Positions 1 to 62,116 of a stretch of DNA of 64,000 nucleotides are shown here, piece after piece. Origin of the DNA: Victivallales bacterium (GTDB taxonomy: Bacteria; Verrucomicrobiota; Lentisphaeria; Oligosphaerales; Oligosphaeraceae); the NCBI GenBank assembly GCA_017535315.1, contig JAFXUD010000054.1:1-64000 (forward strand), read 5' to 3'. The notes beneath the pieces are model-generated. The model saw nothing but the letters and a program-made list of their open reading frames with translations, was not told the DNA's origin and made no database searches. Both the position numbers and the translations under genes were made by a program. The stretch's first letter is position 1, and each line of letters starts with the position of its first letter.

Positions 1-192
1 CCGCGTAAGCGGCGGCAAGAGCATAGCCGTGGGTAGAGCGAAGCCGCGACAGCGGCGAAGCGAAACCCACGGTCAGATGCCCACCCCTGTCCCCGCGCGC
101 CTTGCCGCGTAGCGCAGCAAAGCGGCAAGGCGCATTCAGACCATCGACCAATGAAGGATAATGTCATCAGGAAACTCAAGTATATAATTTCC
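1..192 (-). repeat. Dispersed MITE-like element, copy A (truncated by window edge)
   Basis: This stretch, read on the minus strand, matches 21976-22259 and 52406-52758: it begins GGAAATTATATACTT, continues with TGAGTTTCCTGATGACATTA and then a GC-rich block of short palindromes (GCCGC...GCGGC). The other end lies outside the window. It starts directly after the T-tract of the tRNA-Lys terminator. No coding function is supported; the GC-rich part has chance ORFs only. Confidence 0.85.
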
Positions 193-200
193 AAATAAAA

Positions 201-11423: not shown

Positions 11424-11484
11424 CAACACCAGCGCAAATGCAATGCTACAACGACGACGTCTCGTAAAAACTCCTAACTAAAAA

Positions 11485-11571
11485 GGGACGGGAGCGACGG
11501 GAGGGACGAGAGCGACAGCAAAATGATGCTAGTTTTTTTGTCGCTCCCGTCCCTCCCGTCGCTCCCGTCCC
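11485..11571. repeat. Long hairpin, 33-nt arms with one mismatch
   Basis: The left arm at 11485-11517 (starting GGGACGGGAGCGACGGGAGG) is the reverse complement of the right arm at 11539-11571 except for one position that can form G-U. The loop is 21 nt and contains T7. Each arm is itself built of an 8-9 bp unit (GACGGGAG plus C or G) repeated three times. It lies between the plus-strand glycosyltransferase gene and the convergent hydF, where it could act as a bidirectional transcription barrier. Confidence 0.9.
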
Positions 11572-11643
11572 ATTAGGTGTTAACTCAGAAGTATTGACGG
11601 GACGTCATCATTACATCCACTGTCGCAATGCACAACCAGATGG

Positions 11644-14283: not shown

Positions 14284-14372
14284 GTTAGTGGTTATTGGTA
14301 AACAATTAGCAATTAGCAATTAGAAATTAGCAATTAGCTATTAGCTATTAGAAATTGCTAATTGCTAATTAG
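14284..14372. repeat. AATTAGC heptamer repeats, direct then inverted
   Basis: Between hydE and hydG lie several tandem AATTAGC units (14304-14340), degenerate TTAGCTA units, and inverted copies GCTAATT (14356-14371), so the tract can fold into an AT hairpin. The hydE stop codon lies inside the inverted copies, so the last residues of HydE (LISN) are encoded by the repeat. A similar tract is at 61864-61970. Confidence 0.85.
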
Positions 14373-21938: not shown

Positions 21939-21975
21939 CGTAAGAAGGCCCAACCTGAAAACCAGGCTTTTTTTT

Positions 21976-22259
21976 GGAAATTATTTACTTGAGTTTCCTG
22001 ATGACATTATCCCTCACTGGTCGATGGTCAAAATGCGCCTTGCCGCTTCGCTGCGCTACGCGGCAAGACGCACAGGGATCGAGGTGGTCATCTGACCGTG
22101 GGCTTCGCTTCGCCGCTATCGCGGCTTCGCTTCACCCACGGCTATACTCTTACCGCCGCTTACGCGGCTTTGCTCTTGCCACGGCTATGTTCCTGCTGCC
22201 GCTGTCGCGGCTCTTCTCTGTTGGTGGAGTCTAATCGGCAACTAAAGAACATAATTCCC
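21976..22259 (+). mobile_element. MITE-like element, copy B (complete, 284 bp)
   Basis: The left end GGAAATTATTTACTT and right end (reverse complement GGGAATTATGTTCTT) form an imperfect 15-bp terminal inverted repeat. The interior is GC-rich with nested palindromes (GCCGCTTCG/CGCGGC, CGCCGCTATCGCGG). The left end follows a T9 tract; the right end lies 1 nt from the Wza-like stop codon. There is no transposase, so it is a presumed non-autonomous element. It separates the export and polymerase genes. Confidence 0.75.
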
Positions 22260-22260
22260 T

Positions 22261-23292
22261 TTATTTTATAGGCAGCAATTTCATCAGCTGAACTGTCGGA
22301 AGGATTTTCCTCACGAAAACATTGTATTCAGAGATATCGTCCTTGGGCACATAGATGACATCCCCCGCCTCTATCAGGACATTTCCGCGCCGTCCCTGAA
22401 GGATGCCATCCAAATCAATTTTGTACATTTTGGGATTGGCAATGCCCCCACGAATGATAATGACGTGATGCCAATAGGTCTCATTCATCCATCCTCCGAT
22501 GGTCAGCGCATCGAGCAGGTTAAGATTCTTAGTCCAGATTTGACGGCAAGGAGCCCTGACATCCCCCACCACATAAAACATGCTGTTGTCCTTGGCCGCG
22601 ACATAGATGTAATCTCCTTTGCTCAACAAGATATTATGAACACGATCCCCCTCTGTAATAGCCTTGTTGAAATCAATGGGTATCGTCTTGTTCTTCCGTA
22701 CAAAAATAGACCTGTCAAAATCGGCGGCCTCCATATCCTTAGTATCATATCGGCGAATAGAGGCGCCGCCTGCCTTTGCGAAAAGATCGACCAGCCTCAT
22801 GCCATTCGATATGGTGTACATTCCAGGCTTCGACACCGCCCCTGCAATCGTGACATTTTCCGAAAGAATCTCAATCGGGGAAATGCCCACTTTCGGGTTG
22901 CGGATATACTTTTCAAGTGCCTCCTCAATGGCATGAGCAGCCTGCTCCAGAGAAAGACCAGCGACTTTGACTTGGCCAGCAAACACCATTCCAATATAGC
23001 CATCTGGAGTCACCGTTGTTCTGATATTCAACTCGGCATGGTTATAGACGATGACCGAAACAACATCCCCTGCATTAATCGCATAAGTTGACTCGTGTTT
23101 TTTTTCCAGTTCCTCCAGTTCCTTCAAGCGGATTGCTCTTTCGACTTCATTCAGCTCAGCCTCTTCAAGCACCGCATTTGGATTGTATTCTAGCTCGGGA
23201 AGCTCCTTGTATTTCAGGTTTGTACGTCCATAACAACCTGCAAGAAGGCAGATTATCAGGAGTATTGCAGAAATATGGAACAATGATTTCAT
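22261..23292 (-). CDS. Wza-like polysaccharide export lipoprotein
   Basis: 343 aa. The signal MKSLFHISAILLIICLLAGC ends in a lipobox with lipid Cys 20. A Poly_export domain follows (about 75-155: YAINAGDVVSVIVYNHAELN, then VTPDGYIGM), then SLBB-like segments (VTIAGAVSKPGMY near 175 and VVGDVRAP near 255). It forms the outer-membrane pore or adaptor of exopolysaccharide export. GGAGG lies 8 nt before the ATG, and the gene starts 3 nt after the Wzz/Wzc-like gene. The stop is followed at once by the MITE-like element. Confidence 0.9.
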   Translation of the reverse strand: MKSLFHISAILLIICLLAGCYGRTNLKYKELPELEYNPNAVLEEAELNEVERAIRLKELEELEKKHESTYAINAGDVVSVIVYNHAELNIRTTVTPDGYIGMVFAGQVKVAGLSLEQAAHAIEEALEKYIRNPKVGISPIEILSENVTIAGAVSKPGMYTISNGMRLVDLFAKAGGASIRRYDTKDMEAADFDRSIFVRKNKTIPIDFNKAITEGDRVHNILLSKGDYIYVAAKDNSMFYVVGDVRAPCRQIWTKNLNLLDALTIGGWMNETYWHHVIIIRGGIANPKMYKIDLDGILQGRRGNVLIEAGDVIYVPKDDISEYNVFVRKILPTVQLMKLLPIK

Positions 23293-35435: not shown

Positions 35436-35487
35436 CACGCCTGCTCTTTACGTACGCTTCCTCTAGATTTTTTCAAAGCTGTTGACC

Positions 35488-38400
35488 ATGAAAAAACTCC
35501 TCGCATATACTGGACTGATTCTATTAGTTTCAACTGCGTTCACCATGGCAGTGCAAACAGGCTCCGAATGGAGCTCGCCTGGCGTTTTGGACAATCGTAG
35601 TACCTTTGGATGGCAAGTCGTTCATGGGAAAAATGTCTATGTTTCCCCAAGAAAAAGCTCATATAAGCCTGACACAACCTTCATAATCAACGGCAAAACA
35701 GCTTCTGGCTGGTCCCAAATCAATCCTTTCTGGAACAGTACCAGCGTTGAAAACGCCTATTACTCTGTGGACAACGCCAAACTCGCCGTGCTCAACGATA
35801 ATAACGTTGTCTTTCACGGTGGCGTACTTGAACAAAACGAGACCTGGGAAGGCAACAAGGTGCACCTCGTGCAGTACAGCACCCGTGTTCCAAGAGGATA
35901 TACCCTGACTATTGCGGACAATGCGATTGTCAAGTTCTGCGATGACGTCAATCTCATCGTTGACACGGGAGCGACGCTCGTTGTCGGCAACGCCTATTTC
36001 ACGCATATCGCCGATGACACTGTGGGCGGCGACACCAACCTGGACGGCAACGCCACTTCCCCAAAGAAAGATGCCTACAAGCTCACCATCAATGGAACAG
36101 TTCGCCCTGTCAGCAACCCCTATATCCGCTACCTCACCCCGACTCCTACGGCAAAGCTTTACACGGTGACAACCAATAACAGCACAGCAGACAGAGAGAT
36201 ATACTTCCTCGGCGCAACGGTCTTTCTGAAGACGACGCCTATACCCAACTGGCCAGTGGAGGAGAATGTGGTCACCTGGAGCAGCACACCAGCCGTCACC
36301 ATCACCAAAGACACCGCAAATCGCTTCGCTGCAACGCTGACCATGCCTGCATCCAATCTCACCGTCACCGCCACAGTTACCAAGCAGAAGTTCAAAATCA
36401 CCACCATCAACTGCACGGTGGATGAAACCCCAAAGACGCCTGAAACCACGGCTACGCTGACCGCCACCATTCCCGAAGGACAGCCTCCCGAGGAGTATAT
36501 CGTGGAGTGGAACTCTTCGCCTGCCGTCACCATAACGCCCAACGCCGATGACCACATAAAGGCGACCTTCACCATGCCGCACTCCGCCATCACCGTCACC
36601 TGCACGGTCACACGGAAAACTTACCCACTCACAATCGTCAAGGGCTATGTGATGCAGGACGGCCAAAAGGTCAAGAAAATCATGCTTCCCAAGGATGGGA
36701 ACGTCACCATTTATGCGACACTCATCGATGGTGTTCCCGTGGATGATTTCATCATCGACTGGAGCATTGACCCTGACGAGGCGGGCTTCTCCACGAAGAC
36801 ACACAACAAAGATTCCATCTCCTACACCATGCCCAACCATGCGGTCACCATCACCATTGACGCAAAGCAAATGTTCCACATCACGACGGAGAACTGCACT
36901 GCTGATATGGAGAAGGCCCTGCCGAACACGCTTGTCACGCTGACCGCCACCATCCCAGCAGGCCAGCCGCCAGAAGAGTACACCGTGGAGTGGAGCTCAG
37001 AGCCAGCCGTCACCATCCCCCCCAATCCCGACGACCATACGAAGGCAACCTTCGTCATGCCAAGCCAAAACATCACCGTCACCTGCACGGTCACTCGCAA
37101 GACCTACCTGTTAACGGTGGTGAATGGCGTTGCAGTGAAGGATGAAGTCGAATACACGGAAATTGAACTTGAAAAGGATGAGGTTGTCGCTATCAAATCC
37201 ATCCAATACGACATTGAAAACTGGACGCGCATGATTGGCTGGACGACGGACGAGGCATTCATGAATCTCATTCAGGATGCCACTGAATACGCCACCACCT
37301 TCACCATGCCCAACACTCCCCTGACCCTCACGGCCAACTACGAGGAGATGCCCTATCTGCCAGAGGATACAAACCACAGCAAGAGCTTGACCTTGGCTGA
37401 ATATCTTCAAGCGAAAGATGCCATGCAAAGCCATTTCATCAATGGCGACCTCTGCACGACAGATGAAAGTGGCAATACTCTCTATGTGCCCAATGAAGCC
37501 GTGCTTGCAGGTGCAGAGGGAGACTACATCCGACGCAGCGTCCAACCTGCCATCTATGCAGAGGGCAGCACCATCAAAGTCACCCTCACAATCACCAATG
37601 CCGCCGATTTCCAAAGTCTCGTCATCTTAGAGAATATCCCCGAAAACTGGAAGTGGTACATCATAATAAAGAAAAATGAAGATGGTTCCGTTTCCACATT
37701 CGGTTCCTCCGGTCCCATCATTTTCGATGTAGAACGCTTGAAATACGGTTTATCCTGGACTATTCACGCTACCACAGGAGAAACCATTTACTATGAGGAT
37801 AAGCAACACACGACTGGAGTTCCAAACACCCTCACCTTCTATATCACCCCAGACGAAGGCGCTGACTTGACAGATACCATCCAGCTCGTTTCCAGCGAGG
37901 CCGTGGGCAATATCGGAAACTCCTATCTGGATGTTCTCCCTGCCAATTCCACTTTGCAACGCGTGACCCCACATTGGGCGGATACCAACAAGGACCTGAT
38001 ACTCTCTTCCGAGGAGATTCTTGCAGCCAGAAACGACCTCATCACCATCATCCTGCATGGAGGTCAATACGTCTGGGATGGAGAAGCATTCATCCCCTAT
38101 CCATTGCTGGAGCCGACACGTGGCGACACCCCAGAGCAAGAGTTTGAAATCGCGCGCCAGCTATCCACTACGGAATACGACTTGGGAAGCCGCGTGAGCG
38201 TCACTCTGGATTTGTCTCCCCTTGCCGAAGCCACTCTCGTCTCCTTTGAAGAAACGCTACCGCAAGGATGGACTGTCGTCGAAAACGGCGGTGGCAAAGT
38301 TGCAAAAGACGGCTCCTTCATCCTTTTCGATTTCGACATGATGGACACCAAGCCACGCAGCATCACCTACACCATTCAAGCCCCCAGCCTTTATGCTGAA

Positions 38401-39168
38401 AAGGAGTACAAGTTCCCCTCGACATCCGTCAAAGGCATATCCAACGGCTCCGCCATCAATGTCACGATACAGAGTGCTACCCTGCACTGGTCAAATCCCA
38501 GGCCCTCCCTGACAGTCCATACCTCTGGACAACTCGCGCAATGGCGTATCAACGATGGCGAATGGCTGACAAGCGGAACACGCCTGGCGGTCACCGCCGA
38601 TGCCTCTGTGACCATCCAGTTGAAACTCCCTGGCGAAAACTGTTTGCTTGGCGAATGGCAACCCATCGACAACAGCATCACCCTTGCCACTCCAAAGGCT
38701 GAATCACTCACCATCACCATGCCCAATCACGATGCGGCAATCAAGGCACGACTTCTTTCCCCCAGAGAGTTCACCATCGCAACTGGCTGGAACTTCCTCT
38801 GTAAGACTGCGGAGATGGCAAACATCAAAGAGCTCAACAGTCTTGTCTTCTTCTTTGACCAGAACCAATACAAGAAGAGCTCCTTCCAGGCTTTGCCGTT
38901 AGGTACCGCCTTCTGGTACTACTCGCATAGAACCACTACCCTCACGCTTTACCCCGAAGCAGTGCAGATACCCTCCAACTACCGCCCAGCCAGGCTGAAG
39001 AATGGCTGGCAGGGCATCGGTTCCCCCGACGCACGCCTCAACTGCCTCGTCAAACCCGATGACGCCGACAGCATTTTCGCCTGGCAAAACGGCAAGTGGG
39101 TGCTTTTCGACACCCAAAACGGCACTATCTCACTCTCTGCTGAACAAGGCTATTTCCTGTTTAAATAA
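35488..39168 (+). CDS. Large secreted protein with beta-repeat domains and two EF-hand-like loops
   Basis: 1226 aa. Signal peptide MKKLLAYTGLILLVSTAFTMA. Residues about 215-620 hold five beta repeats of 70-90 aa resembling divergent InlB-type or Big domains; two are nearly identical (TLTATIPEGQPPEEYIVEW versus TLTATIPAGQPPEEYTVEW, each ending in VTCTVTRKTY). Two longer units follow, each opening with an EF-hand or dockerin-like loop (DTNHSKSLTLAEYLQA near 626 and DTNKDLILSSEEILAA near 831) and continuing into a CARDB/DUF11-like beta domain (PENWKWY; PQGWTVVENGG). The C-terminus (about 1090-1226) is a globular Trp-rich module (TGWNFLCKTAEM; GYFLFK). Probably surface-exposed or adhesive. ATG 35488 is preferred to TTG 35482. 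Confidence 0.75.
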   Translation: MKKLLAYTGLILLVSTAFTMAVQTGSEWSSPGVLDNRSTFGWQVVHGKNVYVSPRKSSYKPDTTFIINGKTASGWSQINPFWNSTSVENAYYSVDNAKLAVLNDNNVVFHGGVLEQNETWEGNKVHLVQYSTRVPRGYTLTIADNAIVKFCDDVNLIVDTGATLVVGNAYFTHIADDTVGGDTNLDGNATSPKKDAYKLTINGTVRPVSNPYIRYLTPTPTAKLYTVTTNNSTADREIYFLGATVFLKTTPIPNWPVEENVVTWSSTPAVTITKDTANRFAATLTMPASNLTVTATVTKQKFKITTINCTVDETPKTPETTATLTATIPEGQPPEEYIVEWNSSPAVTITPNADDHIKATFTMPHSAITVTCTVTRKTYPLTIVKGYVMQDGQKVKKIMLPKDGNVTIYATLIDGVPVDDFIIDWSIDPDEAGFSTKTHNKDSISYTMPNHAVTITIDAKQMFHITTENCTADMEKALPNTLVTLTATIPAGQPPEEYTVEWSSEPAVTIPPNPDDHTKATFVMPSQNITVTCTVTRKTYLLTVVNGVAVKDEVEYTEIELEKDEVVAIKSIQYDIENWTRMIGWTTDEAFMNLIQDATEYATTFTMPNTPLTLTANYEEMPYLPEDTNHSKSLTLAEYLQAKDAMQSHFINGDLCTTDESGNTLYVPNEAVLAGAEGDYIRRSVQPAIYAEGSTIKVTLTITNAADFQSLVILENIPENWKWYIIIKKNEDGSVSTFGSSGPIIFDVERLKYGLSWTIHATTGETIYYEDKQHTTGVPNTLTFYITPDEGADLTDTIQLVSSEAVGNIGNSYLDVLPANSTLQRVTPHWADTNKDLILSSEEILAARNDLITIILHGGQYVWDGEAFIPYPLLEPTRGDTPEQEFEIARQLSTTEYDLGSRVSVTLDLSPLAEATLVSFEETLPQGWTVVENGGGKVAKDGSFILFDFDMMDTKPRSITYTIQAPSLYAEKEYKFPSTSVKGISNGSAINVTIQSATLHWSNPRPSLTVHTSGQLAQWRINDGEWLTSGTRLAVTADASVTIQLKLPGENCLLGEWQPIDNSITLATPKAESLTITMPNHDAAIKARLLSPREFTIATGWNFLCKTAEMANIKELNSLVFFFDQNQYKKSSFQALPLGTAFWYYSHRTTTLTLYPEAVQIPSNYRPARLKNGWQGIGSPDARLNCLVKPDDADSIFAWQNGKWVLFDTQNGTISLSAEQGYFLFK

Positions 39169-45659: not shown

Positions 45660-45685
45660 CTTCTTGACGAATAATCTGCCAGAGA

Positions 45686-46123
45686 TTATTTCGCAGGTGC
45701 TTCGGCAGGTTTGGCCTCTTCCTTCGCGGCTTCGGCAGGCTTGGCCTCTTCCTTCGCGGCTTCAGCAGGCTTGGCCTCTTCCTTTGCAGCTTCGGCAGGC
45801 TTGGTAGCTTCTGCGGGGACAGTCTGAGATTCCGTCACCCCAGTCTCAAGCAGTTTTTCAGCGACAGAGGTATTATCGCTCTTCATGCGTCCGATGACGG
45901 TTCCAAGAAGGAGTGTGGAAGCAAGGAAGACAACGGCCAGCCAAGTCGTAATCTTGGTCAGGACATTGGCTGCGGAGGTGCCGAACACACTCTCCGTCAC
46001 CCCACCGCTGACAGCCCCCAGACCACCACCAGATTTGGTCTGCTGTATCATGATGACGCAGATGAGAAGAATCGCGCTGATGACCGCTATCGTGCCGAGA
46101 AAATAGGTCAGAAACGTTGCCAT
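45686..46123 (-). CDS. secG: Protein translocase subunit SecG with extended repeat tail
   Basis: 145 aa. Residues 1-75 are SecG: two transmembrane helices (FLTYFLGTIAVISAILLICV and TWLAVVFLASTLLLGTVIG) with the cytoplasmic loop MIQQTKSGGGLGAVSGGVTE and SVFGTSAANVLTKIT between them. It forms part of the SecYEG channel. The C-terminal 40 residues are a low-complexity Ala/Glu/Lys/Pro tail built of a 10-aa unit (AAKEEAKPAE) repeated three to four times, encoded by about 30-bp tandem repeats, so copy number may vary without frameshift. Most SecG proteins lack so long a regular tail. GGGC precedes the ATG. Confidence 0.9.
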   Translation of the reverse strand: MATFLTYFLGTIAVISAILLICVIMIQQTKSGGGLGAVSGGVTESVFGTSAANVLTKITTWLAVVFLASTLLLGTVIGRMKSDNTSVAEKLLETGVTESQTVPAEATKPAEAAKEEAKPAEAAKEEAKPAEAAKEEAKPAEAPAK

Positions 46124-52237: not shown

Positions 52238-52405
52238 AGTCGTCTTCCTTATCAATTAATTAAGACAATGCCAAAACAGACGCAAAATACGGTTGAATTA
52301 TCATTATCTTAATCGTCTTGCAAAAAACATGCACACCAATTCATCCTATATAATAATACACAATTTCAAAATGAAAAGTTTTTTCTGTGTTTTTTTGTTT
52401 TTTTA

Positions 52406-52758
52406 GGTAATAATTTACTTGAGTTTCCTGATGACATTATCTCTCACTGGTCGATGACCAGGACGCGCCGTGCCGCTTCGCTGCGCTACGCGGCACGGCG
52501 CACAGGGACCAGGGTGATCAATCTGACCGTGGGTTTCGCTTCGCCGCTGTCGCGGCTTCGCTCCACCCACGGCTATACTCCTGCCGCCGCTTACGCGGCT
52601 CTTCATCGCGGCTTCGCTCCACCCACGGCTATGCCCCTGCCGCCGCTTACGCGGCTCTTCATCGCGGCTTCGCTCCACCTACGGCTATGCTCCTGCCGTC
52701 GCTTACGCGGCTCTTCTCTGTTGGTGAAGTCTTATCGGCAACAAAGTACTTAATTTCC
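52406..52758 (+). mobile_element. MITE-like element, copy C (complete, 353 bp)
   Basis: The left end GGTAATAATTTACTT and right end (reverse complement GGAAATTAAGTACTT) form an imperfect terminal inverted repeat, and it sits after a T7 tract. The core is alignable with copies A and B, from TGAGTTTCCTGATGACATTA to CTCTTCTCTGTTGGTG. It is longer than copy B because of a 56-bp unit present three times (52551-52606, 52607-52662, 52663-about 52716). No transposase is encoded. Confidence 0.8.
52551..52716 (+). repeat. 56-bp tandem triplication inside MITE-like copy C
   Basis: The unit begins CGCGGCTTCGCTCCACCCAC and ends GCGGCTCTTCAT; the three copies differ at only a few positions. Copy B carries one full unit plus a diverged partial one, so the expansion is specific to copy C. 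Confidence 0.85.
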
Positions 52759-52803
52759 TTTTTTTCGCTACACTTGTATTCCATAAATCACCACAAACAT
52801 ATA

Positions 52804-61793: not shown

Positions 61794-62116
61794 ATAGTAA
61801 TTTTAATATATTGATTCTAGCGATTATTTCAATCTAAGATGCGCCAGAAAAACAATACCAATTGAATTAGCAATTAGCAATTAGCAATTGACAATTGGAA
61901 CTATTCACCTATGGAGAACAGTATTCACTTCCTTTTCCAGCTCAATTGCAAATTGCTAATTGCTAATTATTTGAAAGCCTCCATATCAATCGGTGATGGA
62001 TTTCATTTAATTGCCTTATGTAGTAAAGAAAATAGGCCAAACTACTTTGAATTACACCAATTATCAAGTAAATTATTATTAAAGAATAGTCTAGACAAAA
62101 ATAGGATTCTGCAAAG
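61794..62116. repeat. AT-rich intergenic region with AATTAGC heptamer repeats
   Basis: Direct AATTAGC units at about 61864-61885 face inverted GCTAATT units at about 61950-61968, as in 14284-14372. The AT-rich stretch separates divergent genes and should carry promoters for both, but no clear -35/-10 pair stands out. Short ORFs here are not credible. Confidence 0.75.

Follow-up and report, generated by a model that had tools for sequence, protein, structure and literature searches.

MITEs that contain REPs are already known, as are REP dimers within repeated palindromes. QMITE2 of Coxiella burnetii is a MITE of 150 to 190 bp with terminal inverted repeats (TIRs) and direct repeats of 7 to 11 nt, and it contains a REP that has a GTAG tag and is targeted by IS1111 (PMC5896051). 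In Anabaena variabilis, GTAG-15 REP dimers lie inside another palindromic sequence that is itself repeated, and target palindromes unlinked to the REPs were not found (PMC3733652). In REP/BIME systems and REPtrons, the repeats are short palindromes between genes; each has an unpaired foot, and they form both tandem and inverted arrays (PMC2817692, PMC3733652, PMC6006769).

The family described here, MITE-1, was recognized from three copies in a 64,000-nucleotide window (bases 1 to 64000 of contig C94 in a 4.9-Mb genome of 96 contigs). By eye, a 16S fragment (L198) hints at the PVC group, possibly Kiritimatiellota. Like QMITE2, which is mostly intergenic or 3' untranslated, MITE-1 has TIRs, direct repeats, and a REP-like interior. 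Unlike that of QMITE2, its core consists of three hairpins, is common to at least three MITE families, and matches the repeats beside Y1 genes. The core palindromes resemble those of REP/BIME systems and REPtrons in being short and intergenic, in having an unpaired foot, and in forming tandem and inverted arrays, and, as in REPtrons, they flank a Y1 HUH transposase gene; however, most core copies here lie inside DDE-type MITEs, unlike those of REP/BIME systems. The embedding of REPs in a second repeated palindromic sequence is shared with A. variabilis, whereas the recurrence of the MITE-1 ends with other interiors in relatives and the presence of an 8-bp duplication are not. A second family with the same core, MITE-2, resembles the IS66 family and IS66-type MITEs in its GTAA-type ends and 8-bp duplication. 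In contrast, MITE-1 ends start with GGGAATTATATAC and match no insertion sequence found in this analysis. That a single REP-like core occurs in several MITE families whose ends differ, and is linked to Y1 genes of the same lineage, is new. MITE-1 is probably a cut-and-paste, non-autonomous transposon with a REP/BIME-like core from a Y1 (RAYT-like) system.

Copies, ends, and target duplications of MITE-1

The sequence-only reading had reported three related copies in the window, the first reversed relative to the other two, and its coordinates and orientations were all correct (Table 1). The 5' module that it described is identical in copies A, B, and C. Copy A is incomplete because the first base of the window is also the first base of contig C94; the 8-bp target sequence beside it lies directly past a terminator-like stem, itself downstream of a tRNA gene. 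The 8-bp duplications around copies B and C are poly-T. Each extra unit of copy C repeats part of hairpin B together with hairpin C.

Table 1. Positions of the MITE-1 copies and their parts in the window
Feature	Position	Strand	Remark
Copy A, 5' part	1..192	-	element reads 192 to 1; incomplete at contig end
A+T-rich 8-bp target sequence beside copy A	193..200		reads TTTTATTT on - strand; single side visible
Copy B, left target duplication TTTTTTTT	21968..21975		8-bp period set by 89 elements
Copy B, complete, 284 bp	21976..22259	+	
Copy B, hairpin A	22034..22072	+	repeat family D11
Copy B, hairpin B (CCGTGGG...CCCACGG)	22096..22141	+	REP-like
Copy B, hairpin C	22155..22168	+	
Copy B, right target duplication TTTATTTT	22260..22267		
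Copy C, left target duplication TTTTTTTA	52398..52405		
Copy C, complete long variant, 353 bp	52406..52758	+	
Copy C, 5' terminal inverted repeat	52406..52428	+	family consensus GGGAATTATATACTTGAGTTTCC
Copy C, hairpin A	52464..52502	+	
Copy C, hairpin B	52527..52572	+	REP-like
Copy C, hairpin C	52586..52599	+	
Copy C, two extra 56-bp tandem units	52600..52711	+	repeat family D1, spacing 56
Copy C, 3' terminal inverted repeat	52737..52758	+	
Copy C, right target duplication TTTTTTTC	52759..52766		

The 21-base 5' module matched the genome 103 times at up to 3 mismatches, far more than the three copies of the window, while the reversed pattern gave no match. A BLAST search with copy C as the query returned 48 matches, the top 40 at E ≤ 2.3e-70. 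By these pattern and BLAST searches, together with direct reading of about a quarter of the genome, the family comprises about 100 copies in 4.9 Mb. An alignment of 55 full copies spanned 259 columns with a mean column identity of 88%, and the ends were constant across the aligned copies; pairwise divergence was 2% to 14%. The consensus is 241 bp long, and elements range from 119 to 485 bp, most being about 241 bp, with extra tandem hairpin units accounting for the longer copies (282 to 369 bp), among them copy C. Inverted repeats do bound copies B and C, as had been noted, but the 15 bp given for them was too short. The TIR is an imperfect repeat of 23 bp (GGGAATTATATACTTnAGTTnCC), and the 5' end (GGGAATTATATACTTGAGTTTCC) and the inverse of the 3' end (GGGAATTATATACTTTAGTTGCC) agree at 21 of 23 positions. 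The interior has no transposase gene, and the elements are too short for one. In total, 80 of 83 copies are intergenic, in tandem, divergent, and convergent gaps alike.

Target duplication was scored in 89 unique elements, each counted once. An exact 8-bp duplication flanks 27 of them, against 0.40 expected from mismatched flanks, and 55 have one with at most one mismatch (2.90 expected), while neighbouring duplication lengths are near expectation. The duplicated bases are 88% A+T, compared with 47% in the sequence read. Joining the two flanks revealed paralogous empty sites for at least three elements, each site with a single copy of the 8 bp, after matches that are the occupied locus itself were left out. 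The sites are L133, L192, and L210 for the element of contig C7; L199, L104, and L152 for that of C52; and L139 for that of C6. At L136, MITE-1 is nested within another element having the same TIRs. The suggestion of an abundant non-autonomous element is thus borne out by the copy number, constant ends, 8-bp target duplication, paralogous empty sites, and lack of an ORF. Neither sign that would have refuted it, a family of just three copies or variable ends, was seen. The TIRs and the duplication point to a DDE transposase as the mover of MITE-1. As a separate observation, six of the empty sites (L133, L192, L210, L199, L104, and L152) belong to another intergenic repeat family (GGTAACGGCAATGTTTTTTGTTGCGCCC...GGGCGC...), which is both a target of MITE-1 insertion and a source of empty sites.

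The sequence-only reading had also suggested that the transposase comes from elsewhere. Its non-autonomous part held, but no gene with MITE-1 ends was found in the 4.9-Mb genome or in the family relatives searched. The search covered ISL3, IS1595, IS256, IS66, and DDE_Tnp_1 in a 96-contig assembly, and the first four families had no match in this genome. IS66 was rejected as the source of MITE-1, whose ends start with GGGAATTATATAC and are not of the GTAA type; one IS66 transposase gene is present in the sister species G002, and none is present here. DDE_Tnp_1 was rejected as a partner, its sole locus (two adjacent ORFs on contig C88) having no matching end. By eye, that locus (L221, G000:C88:110416-112242) has inverted repeats containing ATCCGTAACTT on both sides. 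TIR searches leaving out MITE-1 ends returned just MITE fragments, nested copies, and single TIR-like sequences. When 1.16 Mb of the genome was compared with itself, only two repeat pairs reached 450 bp, and neither was common to different contigs. When the 5' module was sought in species genomes and in viral contigs, no match continued as the element, and several opened as protein-coding frames.

The hairpin core in different ends and beside Y1 genes

The GC-rich core is not specific to MITE-1, since the ordered hairpins A, B, and C also occur in two further MITE families with different TIRs. Of 127 hairpin-core clusters in the 1.16 Mb read directly, 101 are MITE-1 and the rest are differently flanked. 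MITE-2 has the ends GTAACTATTCAGAAGG...CCTTCTGAATAGTTAC, and at least 7 of 8 bases are duplicated around 7 of its 17 elements (0.00 expected). Its end GTAACTATTCAG is identical over 12 bases to the end beside the G002 IS66 transposase gene, and MITE-2, not MITE-1, has ends of the IS66 (GTAA) type. MITE-3, mostly seen in the sister species, has the ends GTAATGCCTCACTGG...CACTGAGGGATTAC. The order of the core is constant in all three families: hairpin A, linker, hairpin B, CTATGYTC linker, and hairpin C. Copies differ in the inner part of hairpin B, which can be exchanged or absent, but they keep its outer stem. Just inside the MITE-1 5' end lies TTATCCCTCACTGGTCGATGG; because this resembles the MITE-3 end, MITE-1 may have arisen when new ends came to enclose a MITE-3-like element.

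Conversely, the MITE-1 ends bound other interiors. Of 29 genomes examined in the family, 11 have the TIR with a subterminal AGTT, against no match to the reversed control, and the TIR recurs in several other genera around unrelated non-coding interiors. These elements are 72 to 293 bp long, with interiors of tandem CTAGAAGACCTAG-type repeats, GGGACA-type repeats, or other palindromes, and none of the TIR-bounded elements of relatives contains an ORF of 150 aa. Many of them may be old, because the target duplications around them are often poor. Two repeats of the window are similar to such interiors. The tandem repeats at 431-541 (D6; units like CCTAGAAGACCTA) resemble the CTAGAAGACCTAG repeats that form TIR-1 element interiors in sister genomes (L298, L308, and L343), and a 42-bp inverted repeat at 11482-11574 (I6; GGGACGGGAGCGAC type, 90% complementary, 9-nt loop) recalls the GGGACA-type interiors.

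Three Y1 transposase genes were found in the genome. Near the one at C78:90597, the B-C part of the core has three strong matches within about 1 kb, one to the left on the - strand (89% identity, E 2e-21) and two to the right on the + strand (88%, E 7e-21, and 84%, E 5e-16). TnpA-REP genes have been described in the same layout, that of the REPtron (PMC6006769). Long arrays of related palindromes lie on both sides of the gene at C58:17290. A unit related to core B-C adjoins a Y1 gene in G002 (E 1e-5). In G003, of another genus, a Y1 gene is flanked by units whose foot is similar and whose stem differs (CGGGGG/CCCCCG). No hairpin A was seen beside the Y1 genes. A single REPtron alone is modest evidence, because two-sided, opposite-orientation flanking of a CDS by core-like sequence occurs by chance at 4 of 409 (about 1%) in MITE-rich loci. 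Genome-wide, the pattern of hairpin-B arm plus linker has 306 matches, compared with none for the reversed control. Next to the stem, most copies have the foot ATAG, and several units of C78, G002, and G003 have ACAG; the foot reads GARCATAG, unlike the strict GTAG of REP/BIME systems, whose other tetranucleotide foot is CGTC. The two REP-flanked Y1 proteins pass PF01797 but score too low for the curated cut-off of either the IS200 or the RAYT model, with 23.0 and 19.5 bits against NF047646 (the RAYT model; cut-off, 80), and they are therefore termed RAYT-like only, in distinction from the proteins of RAYT systems. REP-like tandem arrays (CCGTGGG...CCCACGTCTATTCTCTGCCGCCCCTACGGGGC) also occur outside MITEs, at L142:457-640, L162:13187-13462, L214:5251-5488, and L211:88-364, several of them at contig ends.

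MITE-1 could be an ordinary MITE whose core is a degenerate remnant of the interior of a single lost autonomous transposon, with the REPs being MITE fragments. Core and TIR are indeed inherited together in about 100 copies, and there is a precedent in Coxiella, where REPs were read as truncated MITEs, that is, small QMITE2 copies (PMC5896051). This account is nevertheless unlikely, as at least three different TIR pairs enclose the same core, Y1 genes in two genera have REP arrays that lack TIRs on their flanks, and relatives have the TIR without the core. It is scarcely credible that a Y1 transposase moves the whole element, ends included, as single-stranded DNA with the TIR being incidental; the core palindromes do match the Y1-flanking repeats, but MITE-1 has both a target duplication and TIRs. 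IS200/IS605-type and RAYT systems are not known to have either. A core shared with other MITEs and with Y1-flanking palindromes, and a TIR that occurs elsewhere, lead instead to a chimeric MITE with DDE-type ends and a REP-derived core. MITE-1 would depend on recognition of its 23-bp TIRs by a DDE-type transposase supplied in trans, and it would have inserted into 8-bp A+T-rich intergenic targets, giving the observed duplications. The REP/BIME-like palindrome core of the Y1 (RAYT-like) system would have been placed between several DDE-type end pairs, those of MITE-1, MITE-2 (IS66-type ends), and MITE-3, a direction of transfer that we infer. The MITE-1 version would then have been amplified to about 100 copies in this species, with relatives having the same ends around other interiors.

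DDE-end MITEs and Y1-linked REPs are physically fused in a single genome here. One core can be traced from one pair of ends to another, and one pair of ends from core to core, which makes the acquisition of MITE interiors testable.

Hairpin variation and the RNA alternative

Divergence from the consensus among MITE-1 copies is 2.2% in hairpins B and C, 7.7% in other internal sequence, and 4.7% in the TIRs. Hairpins B and C are thus 3 to 4 times less variable than other internal sequence (p = 1e-5; p = 1e-3 against the TIRs), and the contrast with other internal sequence persists when G and C columns alone are used. The slow change of B and C could reflect selection on structure, or else template switching or Y1 action may have homogenised them. 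At one pair of hairpin A, 8 of 55 copies have a compensatory change from U-A to G-C, and 13 are unpaired there. Of 86 copies that could be scored, 3 also have hairpin A inverted in place, at C34:17786, C49:260182, and C64:33629 of this genome (G000), the last being partial.

A structured non-coding RNA, which the sequence-only reading had raised as an alternative, or a dual terminator could also have a strong fold like that of the element (z = -7.8, folded as DNA), and would be conserved for how its RNA folds and mobile in appearance only. The low variation of B and C and the compensatory change in hairpin A are in keeping with it. However, such an RNA is very improbable given the 8-bp duplications, paralogous empty sites, and nested insertions. 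Covariation within the family is confined to hairpin A, and template switching can correct DNA palindromes, hairpin A being inverted in three copies. Relative to genes, orientation was opposite in 29 copies and the same in 16, which is not significant (p = 0.07), and no gene-context preference suggesting a terminator or orientation function was significant. In Rfam searches, tRNA alone reached the threshold in the window, and the MITE-1 element gave weak, implausible matches only. The structured-RNA reading was therefore disfavoured, finding no support in the Rfam searches or the within-family covariation.

For the chimeric MITE, a further step can be put forward tentatively: the core may be a palindrome cassette that can be transferred, with a domesticated single-strand (Y1) transposase producing and maintaining it, and that is repeatedly loaded into the ends of unrelated double-strand (DDE) transposons. 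If so, these would be hybrid elements with two mobilisation systems, and the hairpins would be kept for aiding spread, hence their several-fold lower variation. Whether a REP inside a MITE aids its spread, a question raised and not settled by QMITE2, is now testable.

Other repeats in the window

Repeats of ATTAGCAATTAGC with a 14-base period, also in inverted copies (D3, D10, and I8-I13), are located at 14290-14371 and 61851-61972. At 45669-45811, 30-bp repeats (GCTTCGGCAGGCTTGGCCTCTTCCTTCGC) overlap a short ORF (45686-46123, - strand, 145 aa), in which they possibly encode a lysine- and alanine-rich tail. Repeats of about 230 to 255 bp at 36334-37331 lie within a long ORF (35482-39168), which suggests repeated extracellular domains.
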